Notes: generated from the sequence alone by a model not told the origin. 38,850 nt of DNA from Microcaldota archaeon (GCA_030613375.1 JAUWMC010000005.1:1-38850); one strand, 5' to 3'. Shown: positions 1 through 35,775, counted from the first letter of the stretch. Made by a program: numbers and translations.

Positions 1-318
1 CACCAGTTCAGCGAGGATTTTGAGGTGAGACTTTGGTGCGGCCACATCACAGCAGATACGAAAGAGGAGCTTTCAAAGCAAATGATTGAGGATAAGAGCG
101 TTCTTTCATGTACAGGCTGCCAACCTCTTTATTCTCCTTCCTGTGCAGAATTTATCCAGGTAAGCCAAAAGAAAACTCCTGAAGAGAAGGACAGGGTAAG
201 GCTTGCCTCTTCCAGCCCGCTCCCAATCTTTTTTGGAGCAGTAGGAGCTTCAATCTACTCGCCCAAATATGGAACCGCAAACGTGGTTTACGTGCCTCTT
301 ACGGAGTGGATAGAATGA
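1..318 (+). CDS. C-terminal part of a secreted or pilin-operon protein (5' end outside window)
   Basis: The reading frame is open from the first base, so this is the 3' end of a longer gene; the GTG at 25 is in frame but there is no reason to call it the start. The visible 106 or so residues contain four cysteines (W-C-G-H, then C-T-G-C and S-C-A) and end in a small-residue-rich stretch followed by PLTEWIE. I do not recognise the family. The ATGA overlap with the following class III prepilin-like gene, and two further pilin-like genes behind it, place it in an envelope or pilus operon. Its cysteines suggest disulfides outside the cell. Function is unknown; that it is coding is fairly sure because the operon is packed without gaps. 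Confidence 0.6.
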   Translation, partial: HQFSEDFEVRLWCGHITADTKEELSKQMIEDKSVLSCTGCQPLYSPSCAEFIQVSQKKTPEEKDRVRLASSSPLPIFFGAVGASIYSPKYGTANVVYVPLTEWIE

Positions 319-623
319 AGGGTCAGGTTACAGTGGAGGAATTAATTTCCCTTTCTATCTATTTACTCTTGCTCTCCATGCTCATCTCTGCAACCCTCAA
401 TCTTAAGGAATCCGGAGAAAATTGGGGTGAGCAACTTTCCCTGCGTGCAGAAGCAGGTTCATTAGCTCGCACAGAAGACGCATTCCACAATAATAATCTA
501 TACAATCCATACAACTGGTCCGGAGGAGGAACCGGATACCTGGAACTCCAGAAAGGAGAATTAGAAGCTACAGCCCCAGTTTTGTGGGGAAAAGCAGAGG
601 TGGCAAAAGGTGAACCAATTTAA
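315..623 (+). CDS. Class III signal peptide prepilin-like protein
   Basis: A 102-residue protein whose N-terminus MKGQVTVEELISLSIYLL shows the archaeal class III (prepilin) pattern: a charged K-G, probable cleavage before Gln, a Glu five residues later, then a hydrophobic helix. Such proteins are processed by an EppA/PibD-type peptidase and assembled into pilus-like fibres or act as minor pilins. I chose the ATG at 315, which overlaps the previous stop as ATGA; a GTG at 306 is in frame but would add three residues before the signal. The mature part is polar and without recognised domains, with a N/Y-rich stretch (residues about 57-67). It overlaps the next gene by 14 nt, supporting translational coupling. 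Family-level call is good; its substrate or fibre is unknown. Confidence 0.75.
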   Translation: MKGQVTVEELISLSIYLLLLSMLISATLNLKESGENWGEQLSLRAEAGSLARTEDAFHNNNLYNPYNWSGGGTGYLELQKGELEATAPVLWGKAEVAKGEPI

Positions 624-1017
624 GGGATTTATTTCGTTTGATTTGCTTTTTGCTGCACTTCCATTACTCCTTATGATTGTGCACCTGCTCACGGTTACAG
701 GAATGGCTGCGGATGTTGGGGAACAAACCCTCAAATCTACGGAAACAACCGGGAAGCTCATTACAATTGCAGATTATGCGGTGAAGAGGGGAGCGGTCGA
801 GCGATCTCTTCAGGGAACTGAATTCCTGGGAACTGCAACCTACAAACCCAACGTAATCGATGAATCAGTACTCAGCTCAATAGATATTGAGGGAATACGG
901 AAATGGATGGAGCTGGATTCCCTCCAAATCTCCTGGGAAAAAGGAGAAGGATCCTGCATCTATAGACTCGTGCTCCTGGAAGGAGAAGTAAAGAAACTTT
1001 ATGTATGTGGTGAATAA
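610..1017 (+). CDS. Pilin-like (pseudopilin) protein
   Basis: 135 residues beginning MNQFKGFISFDLLFAALPLL. The K-G followed by F-I-S-F-D and then a hydrophobic helix resembles a class III prepilin signal with Asp in place of the usual Glu at mature position 5. The start is a GTG at 610 preceded by GAGGTG at 597-602, a Shine-Dalgarno at suitable spacing and inside the end of the upstream gene. The rest is a soluble domain with two cysteines near the C-terminus (GEGSC and YVCGE) that could pair. It is adjacent to another pilin-like gene with no gap. I infer a minor pilin or pilus-assembly component; the exact role is not visible. Confidence 0.65.
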   Translation: MNQFKGFISFDLLFAALPLLLMIVHLLTVTGMAADVGEQTLKSTETTGKLITIADYAVKRGAVERSLQGTEFLGTATYKPNVIDESVLSSIDIEGIRKWMELDSLQISWEKGEGSCIYRLVLLEGEVKKLYVCGE

Positions 1018-1380
1018 ATGAAAACAATCGAAGCATTAATCTCTCTCATGATACTGCTTTCTTTTACCTCACTTTCTTTGCTCCATGCCCCACCTCAGGA
1101 ATCCCAATTATGCAAATACCAGCTTGCAGAGGATGTGTGGAGAATCGCTTACCTAAAAGGATGCTTCAATCAATCCGTTCCTTCCCTAAATCCACAAAAT
1201 GAAATGGAAGAATGCCTTAACCCGCTAATTGCAGAAATAGAAAGGGAAACCTCACTAAAAATTGCATTCACTCCGTTGGAAGCGGCAGGGGAAAATCTTC
1301 CAAGTGAGAACGCAGTATCAATACGCAAAACAATCCCGATAAACGGAATTCCACAGGAAATAATATTGCACGTCGGGTAA
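1018..1380 (+). CDS. Small pilin-like membrane-anchored protein
   Basis: 120 residues, N-terminus MKTIEALISLMILLSF. It has the Glu-then-hydrophobic-helix layout of its two neighbours but lacks the K-G before the cleavage site, so processing by a prepilin peptidase is doubtful and it may simply be N-terminally anchored. The ATG follows the previous stop codon directly. The outer part has three cysteines (C33, C49 and C67) and no domain I recognise. It is the last gene of the left-edge operon; a TATA box and a new transcript follow. Best described as a hypothetical pilin-operon protein. Confidence 0.6.
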   Translation: MKTIEALISLMILLSFTSLSLLHAPPQESQLCKYQLAEDVWRIAYLKGCFNQSVPSLNPQNEMEECLNPLIAEIERETSLKIAFTPLEAAGENLPSENAVSIRKTIPINGIPQEIILHVG

Positions 1381-1444: not shown

Positions 1445-2611
1445 ATGCAACCCTCACATAGGAGTTCATTGGTAAAATATGCAATTAGGGATGTAGTTCT
1501 TGAAGCCAAGAAGGAGGAGGCAAAAGGCAAGAAAGTTATCTATCTTAATATAGGTGATCCTGCAGCATATGATTTTTCCCCGCCCCAATGCATTGTGGAT
1601 GCAACAAAAGAAGCTTTGGATGGCCCGTACAAAGGATATGCTTTCTCGCTTGGGGAACCTAAACTCAGGGAAGAAATAGGAAAGATCGAGAACTGCAGTT
1701 CGGACAATGTTTTTGTAACTGCAGGACTTTCTGAAGGAATTGATCACGCTATGAAAATACTTTTGGACCCAGGGGACTCAATCTTGCTTCCAAATCCCAC
1801 TTACCCTCTTTACTCAACTAAGGCGCAAGTTCTCTTTGCACAGCCTCTTTATTATGGGTGTAAAGATGGCTGGATTCCGGACCCGGATGAGGTAAGGAAA
1901 AAACTAGATGATGCAACAAAAGCGATAGTAATCATAAACCCAAACAATCCAACGGGTGCAGTCTATCCATATAATTTGCTCAAGGAGCTTGCAGACATTG
2001 CTGCAGAATACAAGCTTACAATAATCGCGGATGAAGTATATGACCACGTTATTTTCGATGATGTGGAGATGCACAAGATGAAGGACATTGCAAAAGATTG
2101 TGTGGTTTTCTCTGGAAATAGTCTGTCCAAGAATTTCCTTTACCCTGGTGCAAGGATAGGTTATATGGCAATCCACAATGATGTTGAAGGTGGGTTCAAA
2201 GATGCATTCACAAGATTGTGCAACCAGCGCCTTTCAGTGAACTGGGAATTCCAGTTTGGTGCAATTGCAGCATATAAGAATGGATTTGATTTCCTTAAAC
2301 CCTCCCTGGATAAGCTGAGAAGGAGAAGGGACGTAATCTGCAAAAGGATTGATGAGATTCCAGGCCTTTCAATATTCCCCCCTCAGGCTGCATTGTACGG
2401 ATTTGTAAAAGTGGATGGATACAATGGAACAGATTGGGAATTCGTATATGACCTGCTCCGCACAGAAGGGGTTTTGGTGGTTCCAGGCTCTGCATTCTAC
2501 AAGGAAAACAAGAATGAGCTCTATTTCCGCACAACACTTCTTCCGGATGACGAGACTCTTGAAACCGCAATGAACAAATTGGAGAAGTTCATGAGGGAGA
2601 GGATTGTTTAA
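1445..2611 (+). CDS. Class I PLP-dependent aminotransferase (alanine/aspartate type)
   Basis: 388 residues, normal length for fold-type I aminotransferases. Visible hallmarks are NIGDPAAYDF near the N-terminus, the cofactor-pocket segment V-T-A-G-L-S-E-G, the NPNNPTGA loop, ADEVYDH (Asp and Tyr contacting PLP), and SGNSLSKNFLYPGARIGY where Lys229 should form the Schiff base; an Arg in Y-F-R-T-T near the C-terminus would bind the substrate carboxylate. It transfers an amino group between an amino acid and a 2-oxo acid in the cytoplasm, most probably alanine or aspartate with 2-oxoglutarate; substrate cannot be fixed from sequence alone. It is monocistronic by promoter position, although an AAA+ gene follows 25 nt later with its own TATA. 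Confidence 0.9.
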   Translation: MQPSHRSSLVKYAIRDVVLEAKKEEAKGKKVIYLNIGDPAAYDFSPPQCIVDATKEALDGPYKGYAFSLGEPKLREEIGKIENCSSDNVFVTAGLSEGIDHAMKILLDPGDSILLPNPTYPLYSTKAQVLFAQPLYYGCKDGWIPDPDEVRKKLDDATKAIVIINPNNPTGAVYPYNLLKELADIAAEYKLTIIADEVYDHVIFDDVEMHKMKDIAKDCVVFSGNSLSKNFLYPGARIGYMAIHNDVEGGFKDAFTRLCNQRLSVNWEFQFGAIAAYKNGFDFLKPSLDKLRRRRDVICKRIDEIPGLSIFPPQAALYGFVKVDGYNGTDWEFVYDLLRTEGVLVVPGSAFYKENKNELYFRTTLLPDDETLETAMNKLEKFMRERIV

Positions 2612-2617
2612 TAAACT
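2608..2617 (+). promoter_or_regulatory. Putative TATA box for the AAA+ ATPase gene
   Basis: TTAATAAAC overlaps the aminotransferase stop and lies about 25 nt before the ATG at 2637, favouring that ATG over an in-frame TTG at 2604. Confidence 0.4.
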
Positions 2618-2636
2618 TTTTCCGAGTATTTCCCCC

Positions 2637-5348
2637 ATGGAGCAAGCTACTAAGACTAATACTGAGCTTGGCCACTCAATGATGGAAGAAAAGGTAAAGG
2701 CATATCTTAAGATAGCCCAAAAGAGCGAAGGGCTTTGGGCAGCAATACTTGTTTTCCTCGGAGCGCTTGCACTTCTTTCTGCAATTCCTTTTTATCCGTT
2801 AGAGATTTCATTTGTGCTTGCGCTCGCTTGTGGTGCAGTTGCGTACAAAAGTCCTCCAATTGGAGTAGCTTTGGGATTCATGCTTATTCTTCCCGCACTC
2901 TCATACCAATCCCCTATATTCGGGTGGGTAGGGCTTCTCCTCCTTGCATTAATCCTATTTGAAGTATTCAATAACTGGGGCGAGATTGCGCTTCTTGAAG
3001 TGATAATCCTACTTCCATTTGCTGTTTTCCCGCTTTCGCTTTTCAGCGGGCTTGTCTATTTTGCAATGATCTGGGGGAGTTTTCATTTCGGCTCAGCAAA
3101 AAGCATGGTGATATCTGTTCCTGCAGTTTTCGTGATATTACTTCTCTCTTCAATCTGGCTTGTTCCCAACTCAGCATTTTTCCCGATAAACATGGCAAAC
3201 TACAGCCCAGGGATCTCATATTTACAGCTCCAGAAGCCCTCTCTTTCTCTTACAACAATTGGAGGAGAAATCGGGCCCGCACTTGGGAATATGGCCAATC
3301 TTTCAGCAGCGGGGGAAGCCTGGAATACGGTTGCCCAGATAGGAAACAACCTTATTACACTATTGATTGCGGACAGTGCATTCTTGCAGCTTGTAATATG
3401 GGCGGCAGTCCTTTTCTTTGCAGGTTGGTATCCTGGAAGAAGCAGGGGAAAATGGAACCAGACAATCGGTGCAGCTCCGGTTCTTGCAGTCCCGATAGTT
3501 TACCTTATCGTCTCCCAGATTTACAGCTATTCTTTTGATCCGATGATGTTTGTGTATGCAGGCCTTTCCGTAGGGATTTTTGCAGCATTGGATTACAAGG
3601 GAATAAAATTCTCCAGGGAGCGCGCAATCTCCAAATCCAAAAAACAACAGAAATTCGGGAAATTCGGATTCAAAGGGATGTCGGATACAGGTGAAACCCT
3701 GGACAGTGTAGGTGGGTATGAAGATGTAAAGAAGGAACTTACGGATTCAATACTTCTTCCGCTTCAAAACAAGGGTCTTGCAATGGCATATAACCTCAAG
3801 GTACCAAGCGGAATACTCCTTTTCGGCCCTCCTGGTACAGGTAAAACCATGATAATGCGTGCCCTTGCAAATGATATGGATTACAGCTTTTACCCTGTAA
3901 AGACCCCGGAAATCCTCTCTCAATGGTATGGTGAAAGCGAGAAGAATGTAGTGGAAGTGTTTGAACGCGCAAGGGCTACCGCTCCCTCAATCCTGTTTTT
4001 TGATGAAATAGATGCAATAGGCAAAAAGAGGGAGCTTGCAGGCACAGATTCCGTAACCCCAAGGGTACTCAATGTACTTCTCCAGGAAATGGATGGGGCA
4101 AGGAAAACAGATAAGTCCGTGATAGTCATAGGAGCAACAAACATTCCAAGTACCTTAGATAATGCGTTAATGAGGCCGGGAAGGTTTGATAAGATAATCT
4201 ATATGCACCTCCCGGACTTTGATGCGAGGAAGGCAATTTTCAAGGTTTCACTCAAAGGCCTCCCGGTTTCTAATGATATTGATTTCGAAAAGCTCGCAAA
4301 AAAGAGCGAAAGATTTTCGGGCGCAGACATACAACAAGTAGTAAAGGTTGCACTCCGCAAGGCTGCGGAGGATGCAAAAGCAGTAGGAAAAGTAATTCCT
4401 ATAACTATGCAGCACATAATGGGAATCCTGGAGCACACAAAACCCAGCACTTCCCTTGCTGCTTTGGACCTTTATGATCAGTTCAAGCTTGACTTTGAGC
4501 GTTCTGAAGCAGGTGCAGCAGAAGCTGAAGCCGCAAAGAAGGATAAAAAGAAGAAGATTGGATGGGATGATGTTGCAGGTTTAAGGGACGTGAAAAAGGC
4601 ATTCAAGGAAGCAATAGAAATCCCGTTGCTTCATCCGGAACTGATGGAGGAATTTAAGGTAAAGCCTAGCAAGGGATTACTCCTTTTTGGCCCTCCTGGA
4701 ACAGGAAAAACCCTTGCAGTACGGGCAGCTTCAAATGAGCTGGACATCGCCTTCTTGAACATGAGTGGAGCACAGCTTATGCAGAAAGGTTATGCTTATG
4801 CAGTAAATGTAATCAAGGAAACATTCAACCGTGCAAGGGAAAACGCGCCCGCAGTAATATTTGTGGACGAGATGGAAACCTTTGCTCCTGCTAGGGGAAT
4901 GGGCCGTGGAGATATCGTGGGTCAGTTCCTGGTGGAAATGGATGGGGTAAAAGGAAATGAGGGAGTTCTTGTGGTGGGAGCAACCAACCGACCCGATATT
5001 TTAGATAAAGCAATATTGAGGCCAGGGAGGTTTGACAAGGTGATCTATGTGCCTCCACCAGACAAGGACACCAGAGTACAGCTTTTCAAAATACACTTTG
5101 GCATTTATGCGGAAAACTTGGATCTTGAGTCCCTTGCACAAATCACCCCAGGATTTACAGGAGCAGATATAGCAGCCATTGCGCAGAAAGCAAAGATGAC
5201 TCTTCTGAACAAAAAACTTGCGGGAGGAGACCCAATCCTTACAACCCAGGAAATAGTGGCGATGCTTTCCCAAATGAGGCCTTCAGTAACTTCGCAGATG
5301 CTGGAGAAATACAAGAAATTCATGCAGGAATACGGGGAAAGAAAATAG
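2637..5348 (+). CDS. Membrane-anchored double AAA+ ATPase (Cdc48/VAT-like)
   Basis: About 903 residues. Residues about 25-325 are very hydrophobic, with roughly eight to ten membrane segments, interrupted by a polar loop containing NMANYSPG and GGEIGPALGNMANL. Two AAA+ modules follow. D1 has GPPGTGKT near residue 397, an aromatic pore loop QWYGESEKN, Walker B ILFFDEIDAIGKK, and GATN plus RPGRFD (sensor/arginine-finger region). D2 has GPPGTGKT near residue 685, Walker B VIFVDEMETF and again GATNRPD and RPGRFD. D2 lacks the usual W-V-G-E-S-E pore segment, having LMQKGYAYAVN instead. No HExxH is present, so it is not an FtsH protease. It probably extracts or unfolds membrane or secreted proteins. 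ATG 2637 is preferred over TTG 2604 because of the TATA position and the lack of overlap. Confidence 0.85.
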   Translation: MEQATKTNTELGHSMMEEKVKAYLKIAQKSEGLWAAILVFLGALALLSAIPFYPLEISFVLALACGAVAYKSPPIGVALGFMLILPALSYQSPIFGWVGLLLLALILFEVFNNWGEIALLEVIILLPFAVFPLSLFSGLVYFAMIWGSFHFGSAKSMVISVPAVFVILLLSSIWLVPNSAFFPINMANYSPGISYLQLQKPSLSLTTIGGEIGPALGNMANLSAAGEAWNTVAQIGNNLITLLIADSAFLQLVIWAAVLFFAGWYPGRSRGKWNQTIGAAPVLAVPIVYLIVSQIYSYSFDPMMFVYAGLSVGIFAALDYKGIKFSRERAISKSKKQQKFGKFGFKGMSDTGETLDSVGGYEDVKKELTDSILLPLQNKGLAMAYNLKVPSGILLFGPPGTGKTMIMRALANDMDYSFYPVKTPEILSQWYGESEKNVVEVFERARATAPSILFFDEIDAIGKKRELAGTDSVTPRVLNVLLQEMDGARKTDKSVIVIGATNIPSTLDNALMRPGRFDKIIYMHLPDFDARKAIFKVSLKGLPVSNDIDFEKLAKKSERFSGADIQQVVKVALRKAAEDAKAVGKVIPITMQHIMGILEHTKPSTSLAALDLYDQFKLDFERSEAGAAEAEAAKKDKKKKIGWDDVAGLRDVKKAFKEAIEIPLLHPELMEEFKVKPSKGLLLFGPPGTGKTLAVRAASNELDIAFLNMSGAQLMQKGYAYAVNVIKETFNRARENAPAVIFVDEMETFAPARGMGRGDIVGQFLVEMDGVKGNEGVLVVGATNRPDILDKAILRPGRFDKVIYVPPPDKDTRVQLFKIHFGIYAENLDLESLAQITPGFTGADIAAIAQKAKMTLLNKKLAGGDPILTTQEIVAMLSQMRPSVTSQMLEKYKKFMQEYGERK

Positions 5349-6258: not shown

Positions 6259-7116
6259 CTATTCTCTCCTCATGAACCCTGCAATCGCTGTTAGCAGGAG
6301 CACGAGCCCAACCGGGCACGCTGAACCATCCTCTTCAGTTTCATATGTTTCCGGGGCAATTGTGCTGGGTGCGGTTTCCACAGGTGCAGCAGTTTCTTCC
6401 GGCTCAGTTCCCGGCTTTGTAACCTCAAAAGGAATGCTTTCCTTGGGCTTGTCCGGCTGTTCTGTCACAACCTCACATTCCCCTGCTTCCTGGTATGCCT
6501 TGAGCTCATTAATCGCATTGGTGATGGTGGTTCTTGAAGCATCCAGCTTGCATTCCACCCCAAGGTCCATTGCTTCAGGGACAACTTCTGAAAATTCAGC
6601 TGTTTTTGCAGGGCAGCCTGCAAGCATTGTTTCAAACTCATCAATCTTTTCGTAAATTACATCTTCCCTATTTGTTCGTGTGTGCGACACATACAGGTTG
6701 AATGTCCTAGAATAAACATCATCTCCATCCACCAATTCTACTCTGAGCAGATCAACATATCCCCTCTCCTCTGATTCACTCATCCCCCAGACTACCGGGA
6801 AATAGAAATCACAGTCTTTCCCGTCACTGTCTACATTTATGCAGGTGTGAACCAGGGACCACTCATTCATGCTGGGCTTGTAGGCATAAATATCCACATT
6901 CTTGTTCTCCTCGAATGGGGTTTCAAGGTCCATCTCTGCATGCATCTGGAAACCTTTTTCCTCATCCCAGTTACAGTTCCACAGGATTATGGGGCTATAC
7001 TCACTTCCGGAAGGAGTGGTATCCTTCAGCCTAAATCCTTTGTAATCATCATCACCCGCAAAAGCCGGGCTAAAAAGCAATCCCAATACAACCAGAAAAA
7101 CTAGAGTTGATTTCAT
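6259..7116 (-). CDS. Secreted protein with C-terminal anchor
   Basis: About 285 residues. The signal peptide MKSTLVFLVVLGLLFSPAFA is followed by DDDYKG. A domain to about residue 165 has alternating strands and several cysteines, then a helical part with C-P-A-K and E-C-K, then a Pro/Thr/Glu-rich stalk (residues about 225-260). The end, CPVGLVLLLTAIAGFMRRE, is a short hydrophobic helix with a basic tail, the layout of archaeosortase-type sorting signals, though without the canonical PGF. ATG 7116 was chosen over the GTG at 7125 because the TATA at 7140-7149 is about 28 nt upstream and the signal peptide then begins correctly. It leads an operon with the zinc-ribbon and GNAT-like genes. A cell-surface role is inferred; its ligand is unknown. 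Confidence 0.7.
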   Translation of the reverse strand: MKSTLVFLVVLGLLFSPAFAGDDDYKGFRLKDTTPSGSEYSPIILWNCNWDEEKGFQMHAEMDLETPFEENKNVDIYAYKPSMNEWSLVHTCINVDSDGKDCDFYFPVVWGMSESEERGYVDLLRVELVDGDDVYSRTFNLYVSHTRTNREDVIYEKIDEFETMLAGCPAKTAEFSEVVPEAMDLGVECKLDASRTTITNAINELKAYQEAGECEVVTEQPDKPKESIPFEVTKPGTEPEETAAPVETAPSTIAPETYETEEDGSACPVGLVLLLTAIAGFMRRE

Positions 7117-7168: not shown

Positions 7169-8410
7169 ATGCGGATGGGACATCTTTTGATATTTGCCCT
7201 AATACTCGTCTCGAGTGCATTTGCGATAGATCCACCGCAGCTTCCTTCATTGGGCATAGCTTTTATTGCTCTTGTGGCACTTGTTTCCGCAGCAACAATC
7301 GCCCTAGCTACTATGGTGGGGCAAGCCTTGCAAAGCCCCAGCATAACTGCATGGAGCAAAAATGAACTTCGCCAGGTTATTGCAGGAACAATCCTGGCAG
7401 TACTTATTTGGTCAACCGTTATGGGGTCATCTACCATCATAAGTACTCTTTTTCTCCAGGAGGGAGTTCCAGATTTGCCTTCTTTGGGAGCAGTAGCCCT
7501 AGATGACCATATTGAATACATGGAAAGTTTGTATATCAAAGTTACTGATGCGTACCAAACAATCGGGCTTTTTCAGGGGCTCGGGTACTTTGCAAGCCTG
7601 GGCGGGTTCTGGATATATGCAGGCCAGGGAGCAACTCCGTACTTTGGCCTGAGTATCCTTCTTGGGCCACTTTCTACAGCTGCAAACAACCTTACCATGC
7701 AAATTTTGACATTCAGGCTAATCCAGGTATTCTGCGAATATCTAGCAGCCACCATTCCCACATTCGTACTTCCAATTGCGCTTGCCTTTAGGATCTTCCC
7801 ATTTACCCGAAAGATGGGAAATACACTAATCGCCCTTTGTTTGGGTGCAATGTTTGTTTTTCCCCTATCCCTAATGTTTGTAAATGAATTCTGGCATGCT
7901 ACAGATTGGATTTACAAGGAAGACATATCTAACATAGAATTCACTGCAGATGATATGGATCTAGGCGAAGGATTTATGGATGGAGTATTCAACACAGTGG
8001 AATTTGTTTGCGGAAACGAAGTTTCCAGGGTTTTTCTTACCCTGGGGGAGATCATATGGTCACTTATTTTTGCTGCGATTGCCGCAATTAGCTGCTTGGC
8101 AGGTTATGCGGCCTGTTTTGTAGCATATTTCCAACTATTCTTTTGGTCTCTTTGGCCATTGATACTTACCTTTTTGCAAATAGCGCTAGCAGGGACAATT
8201 CTTATAATCTTCAATGTAAATCTCGCTGCGGGTGCCCCAGAAGGTTTTAACGTCGTTCCTGAATATCTCTTTCCCGCGGTTACCGAAGCAACCGGATTTT
8301 CCATTGTTTCAATTTTTATGATTATTATGATTACTTTTGCAGGCACCAAATCCATTTCAGCGGCTATAGGTGGAGAATACATTCTTTATGGAATTTCGAG
8401 GTTTATGTAG
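7169..8410 (+). CDS. P1: multi-pass membrane protein, first of six paralogs
   Basis: About 413 residues. The N-terminus MRMGHLLIFALILVSSAFA is a signal peptide, then a first membrane segment. Motif A is SPSITAWSKNELRQV (residues about 56-70). A loop region (residues about 95-160) precedes further helices and motif B, LPIALAFRIFPFTRKMGNTL (201-220), then a helix ending in F-V-F-P. The second half has extra membrane helices compared with its paralogs and ends IGGEYILYGISRFM (motif C). The frame is open upstream to 7115, but ATG 7169 (or 7175) gives a proper signal peptide and the correct distance to the TATA. It heads an operon with the next gene starting right after its stop. The family is not one I recognise; a VirB6/TrbL-like channel subunit is possible. 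Confidence 0.8.
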   Translation: MRMGHLLIFALILVSSAFAIDPPQLPSLGIAFIALVALVSAATIALATMVGQALQSPSITAWSKNELRQVIAGTILAVLIWSTVMGSSTIISTLFLQEGVPDLPSLGAVALDDHIEYMESLYIKVTDAYQTIGLFQGLGYFASLGGFWIYAGQGATPYFGLSILLGPLSTAANNLTMQILTFRLIQVFCEYLAATIPTFVLPIALAFRIFPFTRKMGNTLIALCLGAMFVFPLSLMFVNEFWHATDWIYKEDISNIEFTADDMDLGEGFMDGVFNTVEFVCGNEVSRVFLTLGEIIWSLIFAAIAAISCLAGYAACFVAYFQLFFWSLWPLILTFLQIALAGTILIIFNVNLAAGAPEGFNVVPEYLFPAVTEATGFSIVSIFMIIMITFAGTKSISAAIGGEYILYGISRFM

Positions 8411-9334
8411 ATGGGGAAATTTATGTTCATGCTGGCGCTTCTTTTTCTTGTTTCCCTAGCTTCAGCCACGTGTACTTTCCATCCGGAAGACCCTGAGGAT
8501 GTCGAATCATTTGAATCTGCAATGGGCTTAGTTATTATTGCAATCTTAATCTCAGTTGTGATTAGCGCACTGGCATATCTGCTTGGCAAGGTTACTGCTA
8601 ACCCAAAGTTGCTGGTTTTCAGTAAAGACGAGGTTACTCACTTAGGAGTTACAATCCTTCTATTTATCTGTATTATTTCCTTTTTTGAGGGTTCCTGCCA
8701 GTTTTTCAATAATTTTCTGGAGCCTGGGGCAGGAAGCCTCCTGGATCGTGCCCAGGATTATATGTATGCCCTTCAAGTCAAAGGGCAAATTATAACCGAA
8801 TCCCTTTTGGAAAATTCAATTAAGGAAAAATTCAAGGGTGCAAAGATTGTTGGATACATGGCTCCGGTCATAGGAGGAGAGATGGTTTATATGCACGCAT
8901 TCCATAATGCATTTGCAAGACAGTATGAAGTTTTAGCAGATATGACTACTGTGGGAATGGTTAGTGCAGGGGTTCAGTATTATATCCTCTTATTCGCCCA
9001 GCGACTTGTATTTCCAATTTTCCTCCCATTTGGTTTGCTGCTTAGGGCATTCCCATTTGTCAGGGAAGCTGGAAATGTGCTCTTGGCAATAACTTTTGCC
9101 ATTCTAATAATCCTGCCATTTGCGTATGTGGTCAATTCAAGCGCTGCAGATATAGGGTTATCCACACTTTGTGATGAGCAGACCGAAAAAGTTTTAGGGA
9201 ACTGCGAGGATGTGCTTGGGTGGGGAACAATTGCAGCATTTTTGTTTCAGACAATATTCCTGCCCAATCTGGCACTTGTGATATTCATAACCGGTGCAAC
9301 TGCAATGATTAAGGTGGCCAAGGTGATTCCATAG
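8411..9334 (+). CDS. P2: multi-pass membrane protein, paralog
   Basis: 307 residues, the shortest paralog. Signal peptide MGKFMFMLALLFLVSLASA, a short acidic outer segment (HPEDPEDVESFES), then a membrane helix and motif A NPKLLVFSKDEVTHL (about 64-78). The middle (about residues 95-180) is amphipathic and polar with histidines (M-H-A-F-H-N-A-F). Motif B is LPFGLLLRAFPFVREAGNVL (205-224) followed by a helix with I-L-P. The C-terminal helix ends GATAMIKVAKVIP, a diverged motif C without the acidic pair. It begins at the base after the P1 stop and precedes P3 by 8 nt, so it belongs to the same transcript. Function is inferred only from the family context. Confidence 0.8.
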   Translation: MGKFMFMLALLFLVSLASATCTFHPEDPEDVESFESAMGLVIIAILISVVISALAYLLGKVTANPKLLVFSKDEVTHLGVTILLFICIISFFEGSCQFFNNFLEPGAGSLLDRAQDYMYALQVKGQIITESLLENSIKEKFKGAKIVGYMAPVIGGEMVYMHAFHNAFARQYEVLADMTTVGMVSAGVQYYILLFAQRLVFPIFLPFGLLLRAFPFVREAGNVLLAITFAILIILPFAYVVNSSAADIGLSTLCDEQTEKVLGNCEDVLGWGTIAAFLFQTIFLPNLALVIFITGATAMIKVAKVIP

Positions 9335-9342
9335 GAAACAAG

Positions 9343-11526
9343 ATGCTAAAATATAAGCCAGTTCTATTTGTCCTAGCACTAGCCCTAATATTATTCGCAG
9401 GCTGCCCCCAAGAAACCGAATCTTCATATATAGTTACTGAGGATGGGGGGCAAACAAGTTATGGAGATTTTACTCCAACTTCATCCACCACTATTCTAGG
9501 GGCAATAATTAATGAGTGGAGGATTTTTGCCTTAATATTCTTGATGATTTCAGTGGCTTTAATTGCCATTACTTACCCAATTGCACATGCATTTAATTTG
9601 CCTGGCCTTAAAGCCTGGGCAGATGTTGAGATGAGCCAGGTTTTTGTTACCGTATTAATCGTAGTTTTTGTTATGGCTTCCCTTATTTTTGTGGAATTAT
9701 TTACTCATGCACTTGTCTTAAATACTCCTGAATTAAGCTGTGATTCCTCTTCGAACTATTGCCCTATTACTGTAGCTAACCAATACCTGGAAGAATACTT
9801 GGACAAGAGCATGGCAGTATATGGAGACATTTTAGAAACTGCAATAGAGAAGGGAAAATTAGCCACAATGTCCTTCGTAGTCGGAACCAATTATCTTTGG
9901 CTTGGTTATTTATCCCTAAGCATGAAGATTTGGCCCCATTATATGATAGAAGTAACTACTGCGTCACAGCAAATGCAATTTTTAATGGGAATGAGGGACG
10001 CACTTGTTTTCCAGCAATTTATCCTAAACCATGTTTCTGGAACGCTTGCCCCAATGGCACTCATGCTTGGAATAGTCTTCCGCTCCTTTTTCATTACTAG
10101 AAAGTTGGGAGGGCTTTTAATGGCATTTGGAATTGGTTTCCTCTTAGTTTTCCCTGCAACTTACGCCCTTGCAATGTATACTCTTCATACTACTCTTCAC
10201 GGAAGCACTTCTACTGGAGGAGATGTGTCTACAGAATTCTGCACTGCGAGCTGTAGGGAGCTTCCACCTCTTGCGTATACTATTTCAGGGGGAGGTGAAA
10301 CTTATCAACGCACAGGGATAAAGGAACTCTTCCCTCAGGAATCTGCTGAATCTGACGATGAATATAAAGTAAGAATAGATGAATTTATCTCTGGAAAGAA
10401 CTGCAGTATACAAACAATAGATTTTATGGGAGATCCAATAGAAATTGAAATCTGTGATCCACTAGAGTTTTTGGAGTCTCCAGAAACTAGTGAGGATATC
10501 TATACCTGTGGCTATTACAATGAGATTTGCCCCCAAGCCTGCAGATCCCTCCCTTACCCCAACCAGGACCCAGAATGTGCTTTCCGAAGAACCGAATACC
10601 TGTGCAGGGAAATTGTTCCTGAGGAGTGCTTCACAATTAGGTTTGCAAGTTTTGATGATCCGATGCTTGGAGGATTAGAGGACAGCGATGCACCATCTGA
10701 TGACATTTGCCCACGCAAGTGCAGACCACTAGTTGGGCTCAAAAAAGCAGGCTGCGATATTGGCTATGGATTTATTCTAGACGATGATGGGATGAAGATA
10801 AGTGAGATAACTGCGCAGATGCTCACGGACGGTTATACTACTGTGGATGATGATGAGGATTATTTCTCCCCTGTTTATCTCCGTTGTAATGATACTTGGT
10901 CGGGATGGTGGTTTGCTGACTATTACTGCGAGCCTAATGATAAGGCTTACCGGGCCCTTGATTTCTTAGGCTTTGAAGAACTGGACGAGGACAAGATGGT
11001 GGCTTGGGATGAGGGCTGCCCAAATAATTGCAGGTGGGTAACTACAGACGGAGAATTTGGGCCAGGCTGCTCTGGCTGCATTTCCCAAGCCAATGCAGGA
11101 GATTTATGGGATGATGCATATGATGCAGCAGATCCAGATGATTACGACTTGGATACTCAGATAGAAAAAGCCAAGGAAAGCTGCTACATGGTAATTCCTG
11201 AAGCGGTATTTACTGATAAAGATTGTGTCAGCTGTGATTCTCTGATTGACCCCGGCTTTGCATCCTACCCTCCAGTGCACCAAAAATGCGCTAACCTTTG
11301 TGGAAAGGTTAAGAAGGTAGCAATTAGTGAGGATACAGGTGCCCTGGGATCCGCAACTGATGGTTTTTCAGGGCCACTTGCAACTAAGGCCATAACCAAA
11401 CTTATAATTCCGTCTATTGTGCTTCCTATGCTCAATCTCGTGATTACATTTATGTTTATTCGGACCCTCTCTCCAATGCTTGGAGGAGATGTTGACATTC
11501 CGGGAATGGGGAGGCTGATACGATGA
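9343..11526 (+). CDS. P3: multi-pass membrane lipoprotein paralog with large cysteine-rich insert
   Basis: 727 residues. A lipobox LFAGC (Cys21) ends the signal peptide. Motif A LPGLKAWADVEMSQV (86-100) and motif B, with L-G-I-V-F-R-S-F-F-I-T-R (about 243-253), match the paralogs. After a membrane helix the protein departs from the family: residues about 295-680 form an extracellular acidic, cysteine-rich region with five C-x-x-x-C-R/G units (CTASCRE, CPQACRS, CPRKCRP, CPNNCRW, CANLCGK). The last helix and tail, ending LGGDVDIPGMGRLIR, return to the family plan. So the insertion sits in the loop that is short in P2 and P4. The insert could be an adhesin or recognition domain held outside by the conserved membrane core. 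The stop overlaps the P4 start by 4 nt. Confidence 0.8.
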   Translation: MLKYKPVLFVLALALILFAGCPQETESSYIVTEDGGQTSYGDFTPTSSTTILGAIINEWRIFALIFLMISVALIAITYPIAHAFNLPGLKAWADVEMSQVFVTVLIVVFVMASLIFVELFTHALVLNTPELSCDSSSNYCPITVANQYLEEYLDKSMAVYGDILETAIEKGKLATMSFVVGTNYLWLGYLSLSMKIWPHYMIEVTTASQQMQFLMGMRDALVFQQFILNHVSGTLAPMALMLGIVFRSFFITRKLGGLLMAFGIGFLLVFPATYALAMYTLHTTLHGSTSTGGDVSTEFCTASCRELPPLAYTISGGGETYQRTGIKELFPQESAESDDEYKVRIDEFISGKNCSIQTIDFMGDPIEIEICDPLEFLESPETSEDIYTCGYYNEICPQACRSLPYPNQDPECAFRRTEYLCREIVPEECFTIRFASFDDPMLGGLEDSDAPSDDICPRKCRPLVGLKKAGCDIGYGFILDDDGMKISEITAQMLTDGYTTVDDDEDYFSPVYLRCNDTWSGWWFADYYCEPNDKAYRALDFLGFEELDEDKMVAWDEGCPNNCRWVTTDGEFGPGCSGCISQANAGDLWDDAYDAADPDDYDLDTQIEKAKESCYMVIPEAVFTDKDCVSCDSLIDPGFASYPPVHQKCANLCGKVKKVAISEDTGALGSATDGFSGPLATKAITKLIIPSIVLPMLNLVITFMFIRTLSPMLGGDVDIPGMGRLIR

Positions 11527-12557
11527 AAAAACTGATGTTGGCTCTGGCATTCATTTCGCTTTGCTTTGCAGGTGCAGCTGACTGGCAGATCCTCGCATTC
11601 ATTGCCATCTTTACTGCATTTATGGTCCTCCTTATCTTGTATATTCTCAGTTATTTGGTAAATTCTCCTGAGATGCGAATGATGGCAAAGGGAGAGATGT
11701 ATCAAGTATTTATTACCCTGATGTTCTTGATGGTTTTTGTTTCCTTCCAGCTTTATTCCACATCAGTGTTCTCTTCAGCCCTCTCTAGTGCCTTTGAAGA
11801 GACAACCATGGACCATATTTCATATGCCCAGGAATTGGCAGCCCAGATGGCAACTTATCAAGGGGATATCCTAAAGAGATTGACCCTTGGCTTAACCCTT
11901 CCTCTTGGAAGCATGGCATCTGCGAGTGCCAGTTGCAATATATTGGGAACCAGTTTCTCCTACCCAGGTTGCATTGGAATCCAGGTCCCATTCTCTTCAC
12001 TCATGTTTGCTACAAACATTATTGTTTCTGCCATGCTTGCAAACAATTCCCAAATTGTGCTGTTAAATTTAGCAAAGACCTTCTTTTTCCCAATTTTGCT
12101 TCCCCTCGGCCTTTTCCTAAGATGTTTCCAGTTTACCCGAGGTGCAGGAGGCCTCTTAATTGCGATAGCATTTTCATTTTATTTCGTATTTCCAATTGCA
12201 ATAATGATCACCGCAGGAATGGCGGCAGAAGTGGATTTCGGGGACCCAATGTCTCTTATTCCAGGAGAAGGGGATATTGAGTATCCATCTGAATTGTTTG
12301 GAGAGGAAATGACCAGTTGGGAAATTAATTCAGAATGCAACCCCCTAGATATGGATCCAAATGCAGGCAATAAGCAGGCGCAGCGGTTGGTAGGCAGCAG
12401 TGCAGCTCCTATGATTAAGAGCATCACATATGTATTTTTTGTTCAGGGATTATTTACTACAGGGTTAAATATTTTGATGACCCTTGCAGCAGTTCGCGGT
12501 CTCTCTAAGGTGTTTGGTGCAGAAGTAGATATTTCTGCAATCGCAAGAATTTCGTGA
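11523..12557 (+). CDS. P4: multi-pass membrane protein, paralog
   Basis: 344 residues. Signal peptide MKKLMLALAFISLCFAGAA, a membrane helix, then motif A SPEMRMMAKGEMYQV (about 47-61). The outer loop (about 85-165) has two cysteines that could pair (S-C-N-I and Y-P-G-C). Motif B is LPLGLFLRCFQFTRGAGGLL (194-213), the best match to the family consensus, followed by F-Y-F-V-F-P. A further outer loop, rich in acidic residues, lies before the last helix, and the protein ends FGAEVDISAIARIS (motif C). It is translationally coupled to P3 (ATGA overlap) and to P5 (TGATG). Same inferred role as the other paralogs. Confidence 0.8.
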   Translation: MKKLMLALAFISLCFAGAADWQILAFIAIFTAFMVLLILYILSYLVNSPEMRMMAKGEMYQVFITLMFLMVFVSFQLYSTSVFSSALSSAFEETTMDHISYAQELAAQMATYQGDILKRLTLGLTLPLGSMASASASCNILGTSFSYPGCIGIQVPFSSLMFATNIIVSAMLANNSQIVLLNLAKTFFFPILLPLGLFLRCFQFTRGAGGLLIAIAFSFYFVFPIAIMITAGMAAEVDFGDPMSLIPGEGDIEYPSELFGEEMTSWEINSECNPLDMDPNAGNKQAQRLVGSSAAPMIKSITYVFFVQGLFTTGLNILMTLAAVRGLSKVFGAEVDISAIARIS

Positions 12558-13597
12558 TGTTTATGGCATTTGCATGGAACGATGTATTTTCCCTTTCTAT
12601 TCTTTCGGCAATTGTAACCGGGATCACTATTGGACTTGTATATGCAGCAGGCCAACTCATGCAGAATCCCCGCTTTAATGTATGGGCAAAAACTGAATTT
12701 TTCCAGGTCATTGTTAGCGTTATACTAGTGTTCCTAACCCTATTTTTAGTAGGTTTGATTGGATTGGACCCTTCTGCAGATATGGTAATTGATGCAGGAT
12801 GGATTACTGCATTGTCATCTGTTGATGTTACGACTGTATATGAAAATCCTCAGATAGGTGCTACTGATAGTGTTTTTGACACTGATGAAAAATACCTTAA
12901 AAATCTGGCATTTTTTGCCCATCGCTCAGTAAGAGCTTCGCGTGCCCTTATGGGCTCTACCGATGAGATGTCAAAATATACGCGAACCCCATGCACCCCA
13001 GCTATCCTCCTCTGTTTGATGGGGGTTAATGGAATAAATGTAAGGCCGCTTTCTGGAGCTGCTGCTTATATGCAAACTTCTAATACATTATTGTTTACCT
13101 CTACCAGCGCATATCTCACAATTCTGGCCCAGATTTTCTTTTTGAGGTTCATACAATCAGGTTTAATCATAGTTTATCTGCCACTTGCAATAATTCTGCG
13201 TTCCCTTCCGTTTATGCGGCCATTTGGGGGCGCACTCTTGGCGATATGCTTTTCTCTTTTCATTATATTTCCAATGCTTTTATTTGTAGAATCCATTTTC
13301 TGGAATCCATATGAATGGGTAGGTGGTACCTGGAACGAGGTAGATGATTTTGTGGGTGACTTGGAAGGGCAGTCTGAAGATGCGGCATATGGAGACCTTT
13401 TCAAGAGTGTGGGGGACTGGCATTTTAGTGACATTAATAATATGGTGCCAGGTATTATTGAAATGACCTCTTCAGCGTTTGTATGCGCAACATTCCTCTT
13501 TGCATTTAACATAACGGTTGTATCAGCAGCATCGCTGCTCTTTGCCAGGCTCCTGGGCGCAGAGGTGGACTTAAGTAGACTTGTTCAGATAGTATGA
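12557..13597 (+). CDS. P5: multi-pass membrane protein, paralog without signal peptide
   Basis: About 346 residues. The ATG at 12557 shares one base with the P4 stop (TGATG); a GTG at 12554 is also in frame. Unlike its neighbours the N-terminus MFMAFAWNDVFSLSIL leads directly into the first membrane helix, with no cleavage site or lipobox. Motif A NPRFNVWAKTEFFQV (37-51) is close to consensus. The outer loop (about 70-165) holds a C-T-P-A-I-L-L-C pair. Motif B is LPLAIILRSLPFMRPFGGAL (208-227), followed by F-I-I-F-P. The tail is LLGAEVDLSRLVQIV (motif C). Nine nt separate it from P6. The absence of an exported N-terminus suggests a core position in the complex, which is inference. Confidence 0.8.
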   Translation: MFMAFAWNDVFSLSILSAIVTGITIGLVYAAGQLMQNPRFNVWAKTEFFQVIVSVILVFLTLFLVGLIGLDPSADMVIDAGWITALSSVDVTTVYENPQIGATDSVFDTDEKYLKNLAFFAHRSVRASRALMGSTDEMSKYTRTPCTPAILLCLMGVNGINVRPLSGAAAYMQTSNTLLFTSTSAYLTILAQIFFLRFIQSGLIIVYLPLAIILRSLPFMRPFGGALLAICFSLFIIFPMLLFVESIFWNPYEWVGGTWNEVDDFVGDLEGQSEDAAYGDLFKSVGDWHFSDINNMVPGIIEMTSSAFVCATFLFAFNITVVSAASLLFARLLGAEVDLSRLVQIV

Positions 13598-13606
13598 GGT
13601 AATATC

Positions 13607-14695
13607 ATGATTAATGCAAGAAAAACTCTTGGGCTCGTATTCCTTGTTGCATTATTCCTATCGATGGGGTGCACAGAAGCAGATACCAGTGATTACGAGG
13701 AGGAACTAACAAAAGGGCCGTTTCTTGGAGTTTGGGAAGTAGACTGGGGATGGCTTCCAATTTGTATTCTTGCAGTAGTAATTTCCGTATTTATCCACGG
13801 CATTATCTATATGTTTGGGTATTCGCTAAACATAAATTCCCTCAAGAGATATGCGCAAGCTGAATTGATCCAGGCAGCCGCTACTGCTTTGATTGTAATA
13901 GTTCTAATTTCAGCATTAATCCAGTCGTTTGACTTTATTTCTTCTTTAGGTTCAATTGATTGCGGAGGGAACATAATTGACAGCCCAATCGAAGCAGATG
14001 CCTGCAGGACACAGGAAATCTTAACTAAAGTAGGCAATTTATATGACAATGTTTTTGAGGCAGATTGGGGACCAGAGATCGGTTATTCTACCCAGATCAC
14101 ATTATTCGGAATTCCCGTTTTCAATGGGGCTTGGATGGTGGATTCGATATATAATGAGGTGGAAACATATCACAGCATTGCATATATTTGCGTTAACCTA
14201 ATGATGGCACTGAGTGCAAAACTCTTTTTGCTGCAGTACATAAATGAGAATATGCTTGCAGTATTCCTCCCATTAGGAATCCTCCTAAGGACCTTCCATT
14301 TCACCAGGGGAATAGGCGCATTTTTCATCTCTCTTGCAATTGGATTCTTCTTTATTTTCCCCACAGTTACTTTCCTTATGGACAGTAGTTTTATGGAATC
14401 ACTTGATGAGCCTGACCCCCCAGAGACAATTGTTTCTGGCTTCTGCAATATTCCCATGTTTGGAAGCTTTTCCTTTGGCGCAGCTGCCCTTGCTTCCTAT
14501 GGGGAACGCTCTTCTTCAGCAAGTTCTGCTTCCCTTTCACAGGATTTAGCCAGTTTTGTTGCAACAATCCAGACAGGCATTCTCTTTAATAGTTTAGTTG
14601 CTTTTGCCATAACTGTAACGTTTCTTAGATATGGAACTATGATACTGGGCGGGGACATATCGCCGTTTATGGGAATGGCAGGGAGGTTGATCTAA
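13607..14695 (+). CDS. P6: multi-pass membrane lipoprotein, paralog
   Basis: 362 residues. Lipobox LSMGC (Cys22) and a short acidic outer segment, then a membrane helix. Motif A is diverged (N-I-N-S-L-K-R-Y-A-Q-A-E-L-I-Q, about 75-89) but keeps the invariant Glu86. Motif B is LPLGILLRTFHFTRGIGAFF (221-240) followed by F-F-F-I-F-P. The outer loop after it contains G-F-C-N-I and a serine-rich stretch. The tail LGGDISPFMGMAGRLI is motif C. Two cysteines in the first outer loop (I-D-C-G-G, D-A-C-R) may pair. The stop overlaps the start of the giant lipoprotein by one base (TAATG), tying that protein to the paralog operon. Confidence 0.8.
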   Translation: MINARKTLGLVFLVALFLSMGCTEADTSDYEEELTKGPFLGVWEVDWGWLPICILAVVISVFIHGIIYMFGYSLNINSLKRYAQAELIQAAATALIVIVLISALIQSFDFISSLGSIDCGGNIIDSPIEADACRTQEILTKVGNLYDNVFEADWGPEIGYSTQITLFGIPVFNGAWMVDSIYNEVETYHSIAYICVNLMMALSAKLFLLQYINENMLAVFLPLGILLRTFHFTRGIGAFFISLAIGFFFIFPTVTFLMDSSFMESLDEPDPPETIVSGFCNIPMFGSFSFGAAALASYGERSSSASSASLSQDLASFVATIQTGILFNSLVAFAITVTFLRYGTMILGGDISPFMGMAGRLI

Positions 14696-23044: not shown

Positions 23045-23359
23045 ATGAAAAAAACAACAAAGCCCTTCAAACGACTGAAGCGCCACCTAACTTCAGAAAA
23101 CCTCTGGCTCCCAATAATGTCCATAATCCGAAAAGATGGGGAAGCTTACGCATATGCTCTTCCTGAAGAGATGGAAAGAAGGTTTGGGTTCAAGTGCAGC
23201 CGCGTAATGGTCTACATTGTATTGCACATGCTGGAAGGACAGAAGCTTATCCAGTCTTCGGAAAAAGGAAGGAGAAAATACTACAAATTAACTAAATCTG
23301 GAAGCGATACCCTCGATGACGCAAAGAAATACCTCAAAATGATCTCGTCGTCGCTCTGA
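23045..23359 (+). CDS. PadR-like winged-helix regulator
   Basis: 104 residues. The N-terminal helices, a recognition region with F-K-C-S-R-V-M-V-Y-I-V-L-H-M-L-E, and the wing with S-S-E-K-G-R-R-K-Y-Y-K-L-T-K-S-G fit the PadR family winged helix-turn-helix; the last helix would serve dimerisation. It starts 10 nt after the giant membrane protein and has no obvious promoter of its own, so it is probably read from the same message. Small stand-alone PadR proteins are usually repressors of neighbouring genes; autoregulation of the surface-protein cluster is the natural hypothesis but nothing in the sequence shows the operator. Confidence 0.75.
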   Translation: MKKTTKPFKRLKRHLTSENLWLPIMSIIRKDGEAYAYALPEEMERRFGFKCSRVMVYIVLHMLEGQKLIQSSEKGRRKYYKLTKSGSDTLDDAKKYLKMISSSL

Positions 23360-34593: not shown

Positions 34594-35775
34594 ATGATGG
34601 CTATACGAAGTTGGAAGTTTCGAATTTACCCAACAAAAGAACAGGAAAAAGAACTCAAACATTATTTCTACGAATGCAAAAACCTATGGAATTTCCTTCT
34701 AGAGCATACAAAACAATACTACGAAAAAACCAACAAGTTCCCAACTAGAAAACAACTGTATGTCATTACAAAAAAGAAAACCAAACTGTTTTCTCAAGTT
34801 TCCCAAAATGTGGCAGACAAACTTGTTAAATCCCTGAAAGGAATGATTGCAACAAAGAAAAAGGGGAAAAAAGCAGGTTTTCCTAGATTCAAGCCAATAG
34901 AACGAATGAAATCGTTCACTTATCCACAGTTTGGATTCAAGTTAAACGAACAACTTTCCCTCTCAAAAATAGGAGAAATACAAATCAAGAAACACAGGGA
35001 ACTAAAAGGAAAAATCAAAACACTCACAATAAAACGAATGCCTTCTGGGAAATGGTTTGCCATATTTACCGCAGAACTAGAAGTAATCTCCAAGCACAAT
35101 AAAGGCCAAAAAGTAGGAATGGATCTTGGAATAGAACATTTTGGACATTTAAGTAATGATTCCATAATCACGAACCCGAGGCACCTGAAGAAAGCAGAAA
35201 ACAAACTAAAACAAGCTCAAAAACTACTTTCGGGAAAAAATAAAGGAAGCAAAAACAGGAAAAAGGCGAAACTACGAGTAGCAAGAGCCCATGAGAAAGT
35301 TACCAACAACCGAAGAGATTTTCTGCACAAAGCCAGCAGGAAGCTGGCAAATTCATATTCTTTAATTGCAATGGAAGACCTAAATGTAAACGGATTGAGC
35401 AAAGGTTTCCTTGCAAAACACGTATTGGACTGCAGCTGGGCAGAGTTTAGGGGAATGCTTCACTACAAAGCGGAAGAAGCTGGTTCTGAAGTAGTTTTTG
35501 TAGATCCTGCCCACACTTCCCAAGAGTGCAGCAGTTGTGGTTTAATACGAAAGAAAACGCTTGCGGAGAGGTGGCATAACTGTTCTTGTGGAACATCTAT
35601 GCATCGTGACCTTAATGCAGCTAAAAATATACTCAAAAAAGCTACCGGTGGGCATCGGGAAGCTAGGCCTTTTAGGCCAGAAACGCCTGTGGAGAGTGGT
35701 CCTCTGCCTGAGAAGGTAAGTTCTGCCGATGAATCAGGAAAATCTATCTGCGAAGATAGAAGCCCCGTCCTTTAG
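34594..35775 (+). CDS. tnpB: TnpB RNA-guided nuclease of an IS605-group element
   Basis: 393 residues. The N-terminal R-S-W-K-F-R-I-Y-P-T-K-E-Q-E-K is typical. The RuvC acidic residues are present: Asp177 in G-M-D-L-G-I, Glu261 in M-E-D-L-N-V and Asp339 in H-R-D-L-N-A-A. The zinc finger has C312-x-x-C315 and C330-x-C332, so the nuclease appears intact. TnpB uses an RNA from the element's right end to cut the matching DNA. The last 60 or so residues are not needed for fold; the 3' end of the gene overlaps the guide-RNA region and the right-end hairpin, in whose loop the stop lies. A TATA at 34563-34570 precedes ATG 34594. Confidence 0.9.
   Translation: MMAIRSWKFRIYPTKEQEKELKHYFYECKNLWNFLLEHTKQYYEKTNKFPTRKQLYVITKKKTKLFSQVSQNVADKLVKSLKGMIATKKKGKKAGFPRFKPIERMKSFTYPQFGFKLNEQLSLSKIGEIQIKKHRELKGKIKTLTIKRMPSGKWFAIFTAELEVISKHNKGQKVGMDLGIEHFGHLSNDSIITNPRHLKKAENKLKQAQKLLSGKNKGSKNRKKAKLRVARAHEKVTNNRRDFLHKASRKLANSYSLIAMEDLNVNGLSKGFLAKHVLDCSWAEFRGMLHYKAEEAGSEVVFVDPAHTSQECSSCGLIRKKTLAERWHNCSCGTSMHRDLNAAKNILKKATGGHREARPFRPETPVESGPLPEKVSSADESGKSICEDRSPVL

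Follow-up and report, generated by a model that had tools for sequence, protein, structure and literature searches.

The machines closest to the one described here are the Ced and Ted systems of Thermoproteota (CedA/CedE, CedA1 and CedB/CedD; TedA, TedB and TedC), which are chromosomally encoded, combine a VirB2-like pilin with a polytopic pore protein and a VirB4/HerA ATPase, and do without VirD4 (PMC9905601). In Ced the N-terminal domain of VirB4 (VirB4N) is divided between the proteins CedB and CedD, and the pore protein has paralogs, one extra CedA paralog, CedE, being known (PMC11868833). We analyzed a stretch of 38,850 nucleotides from a genome deposited as Microcaldota archaeon (GCA_030613375.1, JAUWMC010000005.1:1-38850; hereafter, the window) that carries six tandem genes for membrane proteins, P1 to P6 (array I). 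We propose, with a probability of about 75%, that P1-P6 make up the membrane-channel module of a transfer apparatus of the Ced/Ted type, fixed in the chromosome and derived from a type IV secretion system (T4SS), in which the VirB6/CedA position has been expanded to six. These Ced and Ted traits have counterparts in the system proposed here, a putative one in the case of the pilin, and the likeness is one of layout. Ced and Ted have one or two pore paralogs, whereas the Micrarchaeota system has six, in a fixed order and twice per genome; unlike Ced and Ted, it also has giant cysteine-rich proteins (P7 and P8) with array I.

Bacterial T4SSs offer further parallels. The rvh T4SS of Rickettsiales is likewise chromosomally fixed in host-dependent cells and has virB6 paralogs (five, RvhB6a-e; virB6-1 to -4 in Anaplasma) with large lineage-specific extensions (PMC2653234, PMC7648143). 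However, these paralogs number five or four rather than six and match PF04610/COG3704, which P1-P6 do not, and they belong to a bacterial diderm system with VirB8-10 and VirD4. The R388 T4SS resembles the present system in having two VirB3-like transmembrane (TM) helices joined to VirB4N, a VirB4-type ATPase and a polytopic inner-membrane protein in the VirB6 position, but its VirB6/TrwI is a homo-pentamer made from one gene, and no match of P6 to it was found in sequence or fold. Patescibacteria (the candidate phyla radiation, CPR) are similar: their cells are ultrasmall and depend on hosts, and a chromosomal T4SS is widespread among them. It has six divergent VirB2-like pilins and is essential in Southlakia (PMC12102498, PMC12857230). 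There it is the pilin that has been multiplied, whereas in Micrarchaeota it is the pore protein, and the patescibacterial system is of the bacterial MPF-FATA class, with VirD4.

The six genes lie head to tail on the plus strand (7169-14695) with intergenic gaps of -4 to +9 bp. Their products are polytopic by hydropathy, and an AlphaFold2 model of P6 (predicted local distance difference test, pLDDT, 77) has long membrane helices at residues 50-74, 77-113, 179-228, 234-258 and 303-346. A preliminary description of the window had called the six proteins paralogs, and sequence comparison confirms that they are true paralogs. BLASTP within the six-protein set connected all 15 pairs (best ~4e-14, weakest ~1e-3), and hidden Markov models (HMMs) trained on five of the proteins recovered the sixth with E-values from 2e-22 to 4e-26. 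In the latter test, 71 of 1,474 open reading frames (ORFs) were polytopic and outside the arrays; the best of them scored no better than 1.3e-3, and VirB2-like pilins account for several of the nearest. Columns invariant in the P1-P6 alignment are E66, L201, R208, R214, G217 and P232 (P1 numbering). In a wider set of 234 sequences covering all 13 paralog groups, the glutamate is kept in 205, the first arginine in 229, the second in 222, the glycine of motif B in 231 and the helix-ending proline in all 234. Motif A, as it had been drawn earlier, thus keeps its invariant glutamate in P1-P6, but its W, K and Q positions vary. Motif B keeps its first arginine, but that residue is not conserved alone, the second arginine and the following glycine being conserved too; the proline said to end the helix after motif B held throughout. 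Nor did a named family emerge, in line with the preliminary description: P1-P6 had no match in Pfam or NCBIfam, P1 and P6, the two compared with PHROGs, had none there, and a PDB profile search with P6 gave only noise.

The window's genome encodes 13 paralogs, comprising array I, a second six-gene array (array II) spread over contigs C39 and C52 beside a leucyl-tRNA synthetase gene, and a solitary gene on contig C40 that adjoins a motor cassette. The ~920-amino-acid neighbor of array II was considered as an ATPase and rejected; it is the leucyl-tRNA synthetase, and array II therefore has no adjacent motor in the window's order. The count of 13 is no binning artefact, since in another genome one 920-kb contig holds the two arrays together with the solitary gene and two motor genes. 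Position-specific HMMs read the order 1-2-3-4-5-6 exactly in 47 of 51 non-duplicate internal arrays, among them 15 of the 18 that were held out of HMM training. The exceptions appear to stem from contig ends or split frames; arrays cut by a contig edge read as consecutive pieces, for example 3456. A first impression that some arrays have three to five genes did not survive a recheck of the raw frames, in which these had six, were cut at a contig end or had one member split between frames. By profile-profile comparison, each of the six positions in array I is the reciprocal best match of the same position in array II, and among 720 pairings the identity pairing comes first. In a FastTree phylogeny of all paralogs, positions 3 and 4 were not cleanly paired between arrays; the profile-profile comparison resolved all six. 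These position-by-position matches suggest that the six specialized subunits predate duplication of the whole array: an ancestor would have had six already specialized subunits, and the array would have been duplicated later. The specialized subunits suggested earlier are thereby supported.

All named relatives of the arrays are from Candidatus Micrarchaeota, some of them under the names 'Ca. ainarchaeum' or 'uncultured archaeon'. They include CP058998, the complete Ca. Fermentimicrarchaeum limneticum chromosome, and the window's genome is that of a Candidatus Micrarchaeota archaeon. Array relatives occur in all 40 of the nearest genomes; among 295 genomes sampled from the phylum, 258 have them and 256 have VirB4N. 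Arrays and VirB4N are each present in 104 of 125 genera and in 88 of 96 good genomes, and 19 of 20 listed absences are common to both; families f16, f18, f20 and most of f21 have neither arrays nor motor. No paper on this Micrarchaeota system was found in the open-access literature (subscription papers and preprints lay outside the search).

The motor genes were recognized next to the solitary paralog, which in the window's genome is followed by a gene for a 259-amino-acid protein with two TM helices (2-TM) and then by an ATPase gene. This ATPase matches Pfam DUF87 (2e-19), AAA_10 (4e-14) and TrwB (2e-6), and the ATPase of cassette beta has a TraG P-loop match above the cut-off (4e-10). For an AlphaFold2 model of the 259-amino-acid family (pLDDT 80), the top 11 PDB matches were all chains of the R388 TrwK/VirB4 complex (probability 0.92-1.00), while the next was unrelated (0.41). 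From this model we read the protein as a VirB3-like membrane anchor plus VirB4N, with the VirB4 ATPase encoded by a separate gene. Most genomes of the window's order have two motor cassettes. In CP058998 and at loci L162, L168 and L170 the array is followed directly by two VirB4N genes and the ATPase gene; L166 has the array and both VirB4N genes before the locus ends, and L178 shows the same order, cut by a contig end. At L100 and L153 the array and P7-P8 are followed directly by VirB4N, with the ATPase next in L100. Motor type pairs with array type (alpha with array I, beta with array II), and most genomes have both systems. Cassette beta ends in a gene for a 2-TM protein of 800-855 amino acids (L089:3045-5612, minus strand; L161:15855-18290), which is conserved across families and has no Pfam match.

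Just before the array in CP058998 are genes for proteins of 118-119 amino acids, each with two hydrophobic helices behind a signal peptide; they match TrbC/VirB2 at 1e-4 and T4SS_pilin at 2e-4, and in the window's genus the same pilin-like proteins are encoded in tandem upstream of the array. The window's own genome also has a VirB2-like pilin gene, in the terminal part of contig C26, where it precedes the 5' part of the secreted-protein gene with which the window opens. The C26 end has 23 bp identical to the window from base 1 onward, a mid-gene overlap through which the gene reads, and for these reasons the two contigs are probably adjacent. A VirB2/TrbC-like pilin as neighbor of the array is thus supported. 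Family f21, with a single paralog, has a minimal cassette of pilin, VirB6-like protein, VirB4N and ATPase. The array N termini at positions 1 and 3 have weak similarity to the pilins (hhalign probability 78-85%; controls below 1%), which is mirrored in Ced, where the pore protein CedA is similar at its N terminus to the pilin CedA1 (PMC9905601).

The preliminary description had ventured a VirB6/TrbL/CedA-like pore. Its context is strong (linked VirB4N, VirB4/HerA ATPase and VirB2-like pilin, and co-occurrence of array and motor), but homology to VirB6/TrbL in sequence or fold was tested and not found, and this and several other results weigh against our proposal. P1-P6 had no match in Pfam, VirB6/TrbL included, and PF04610 was found nowhere in the window's genome, some control genomes being positive. 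Comparison by hhalign with an R388-type VirB6 profile, itself made from six partly redundant sequences, gave probabilities of at most 4%, like unrelated controls. The P6 model had no PDB match at E<=0.001 although R388 VirB6, one distant target only, is in the PDB, and Foldseek with P6 returned only coiled-coil-like noise. In addition, the pilin matches to TrbC and T4SS_pilin fall under the curated cut-offs, the motor lies on other contigs in the window's own genome and mostly elsewhere in the window's order, and known VirB6 rings are pentamers, so that six paralogs need not mean one hexamer (PMC9259494, PMC12857230). What we propose for P1-P6 is a position, that of VirB6/CedA in a machine derived from a T4SS, and not membership of the VirB6 family.

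In most Micrarchaeota, then, the single protein of the VirB6/CedA position would be replaced by six paralogs with fixed, non-interchangeable places. The six may build a single channel, ring-like or pseudo-symmetric, that plausibly fits the six-fold VirB4 ATPase; in bacteria VirB4 is six-fold, and VirB6 and DotA are homo-pentamers (PMC9259494, PMC12857230). The conserved Glu and Arg-Arg-Gly-Pro motifs would lie on the cytoplasmic side, where the motor would dock, and the motif B loop is strongly positive (net +10 per 100 residues). Signal peptides or lipoboxes, together with conserved and inserted cysteines, would place loops 114-178 and 259-302 of the P6 model outside and therefore motif A and the motif B loop at the cytoplasmic face, giving a predicted topology with cysteine loops outside and motifs A and B inside. 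P3 has a large cysteine-rich insertion of ~400 residues between its last two helices, predicted to be extracellular; with the other outside loops and P7/P8 it may form a contact or stalk with another cell. The substrate would be DNA or macromolecules of another kind, passing between the cell and its partner or host.

The fixed order and the parallel arrays are the pattern expected of the subunits of an obligate hetero-oligomer, though they are no proof of one. A more specific version of our proposal, to which we would give slightly less than even odds, is an obligately hetero-hexameric, conjugation-type channel in which each paralog fills one unique position, a membrane counterpart of MCM2-7. 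The machine would have been duplicated into array I/motor alpha and array II/motor beta and would be core to the phylum, serving cell-cell or host transfer. Alternatively, the six genes could serve several complexes, with a separate homo-oligomeric channel for every paralog, differing in substrate or partner, and with co-transcription serving co-regulation only. VirB6 and DotA set a precedent as homo-pentamers in the solved systems (PMC9259494, PMC12857230), and the existence of the solitary paralog and of single-copy lineages makes a homo-oligomer possible. We nevertheless consider separate channels unlikely: they should be lost or reshuffled singly, whereas nearly every complete array has exactly six members in one fixed order, internal arrays show no partial losses, and the arrays evolve in parallel by position.

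Less likely still, in our view, is that the arrays are unrelated to T4SSs and form a Micrarchaeota-specific surface complex, for S-layer (surface layer)/envelope assembly or export, with a HerA-like ATPase by convergence. This would agree with the lack of VirB6 homology in P1-P6 by sequence or fold and with the giant cysteine-rich surface proteins that accompany array I. However, the fold match of VirB4N is specific to R388 VirB4, TrbC/T4SS_pilin-like genes head the same gene row, and the minimal pilin-VirB6like-VirB4N-VirB4C cassette exists. A recent mobile element, either an integrated conjugative plasmid or an integrative and conjugative element (ICE), would account for conjugation-type components but is highly improbable given the phylum-wide spread with conserved synteny, the absence of VirD4 (PF02534) from 21 of 21 genomes (five control genomes positive) and the lack, among plasmids, of any credible relative of the solitary paralog.

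The genes of array I and those flanking it are listed in Table 1. For P1 an ATG is also present upstream, at 7115; the start given leaves a clean signal peptide. The P7 family (~1,300-1,900 amino acids) has an invariant lipobox G19-C20 and dozens of conserved cysteines and is co-conserved with array I across the order; profile searches found no family or PDB match for P7. Its C-terminal part had looked by eye like a glycosidase, but profile searches came back empty and no such claim is made. P8 carries EB/Dickkopf-like cysteine-rich repeats (DUF7107, animal-like), one TM helix near residue 430 and a long, basic tail of ~800 residues that is predicted to be cytoplasmic, and might be a trans-membrane link to cell contact. 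Upstream of the array, the three small single-TM proteins may be pilin-like accessories. The double-AAA protein may be another accessory; its synteny with array I holds in the genus and extends beyond it to some genomes of the family, from at least one further genus.

Table 1. Features of array I and its surroundings, numbered from the first base of the window.
Feature	Position	Strand	Remarks
3' part of secreted protein	1-318	+	5' part on contig C26, same genome
Three small single-TM proteins	306-1380	+	class-III-signal-like N termini; syntenic with array I in genus
Double-AAA (Cdc48-type) membrane-anchored protein	2604-5348	+	N-terminal block of ~7 TM helices
P1	7169-8410	+	array I position 1; polytopic, signal peptide; putative VirB6/CedA-position paralog
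P2	8411-9334	+	array I position 2
P3	9343-11526	+	array I position 3; lipobox LFAGC
P4	11523-12557	+	array I position 4
P5	12554-13597	+	array I position 5; no obvious signal peptide
P6	13607-14695	+	array I position 6; lipobox LSMGC
P7	14695-19128	+	giant disulfide-rich predicted lipoprotein, directly after array I
P8	19177-23034	+	giant protein, conserved after P7
104-amino-acid small protein	23045-23359	+	after P8 within genus (77-80% identity); winged-helix-like by eye

Elsewhere in the window, positions 34594-35775 encode what by eye is a TnpB/OrfB-like protein (IS200/IS605 type). Contig C87 of the same genome carries a separate T4SS-like locus, cut by the contig end (19007-22408; L195 9007-12408), with two pilin-like ORFs, a 493-amino-acid secreted protein, a 324-amino-acid protein with eight TM helices and a PrgI-family VirB3-like protein (PF12666, E 1e-4). 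It is possibly a conjugative element of the MPF-FATA type.

Altogether, these data suggest that the phylum runs a conjugation-like transfer channel in which the usual single pore protein is split into six specialized parts. Position-specific six-fold expansion of a pore would, if true, be an unusual instance of a channel evolving obligate hetero-oligomery in a ratchet-like manner, as in MCM2-7 and the chaperonins, and it poses the question of whether the channel here is six-fold like the VirB4 motor, in contrast to the five-fold VirB6 of bacteria. Exchange of DPANN archaea with their hosts and neighbors is a long-standing question; a near-universal, two-copy T4SS-like apparatus would, if true, be a direct candidate for it and would parallel the essential T4SS of Patescibacteria.

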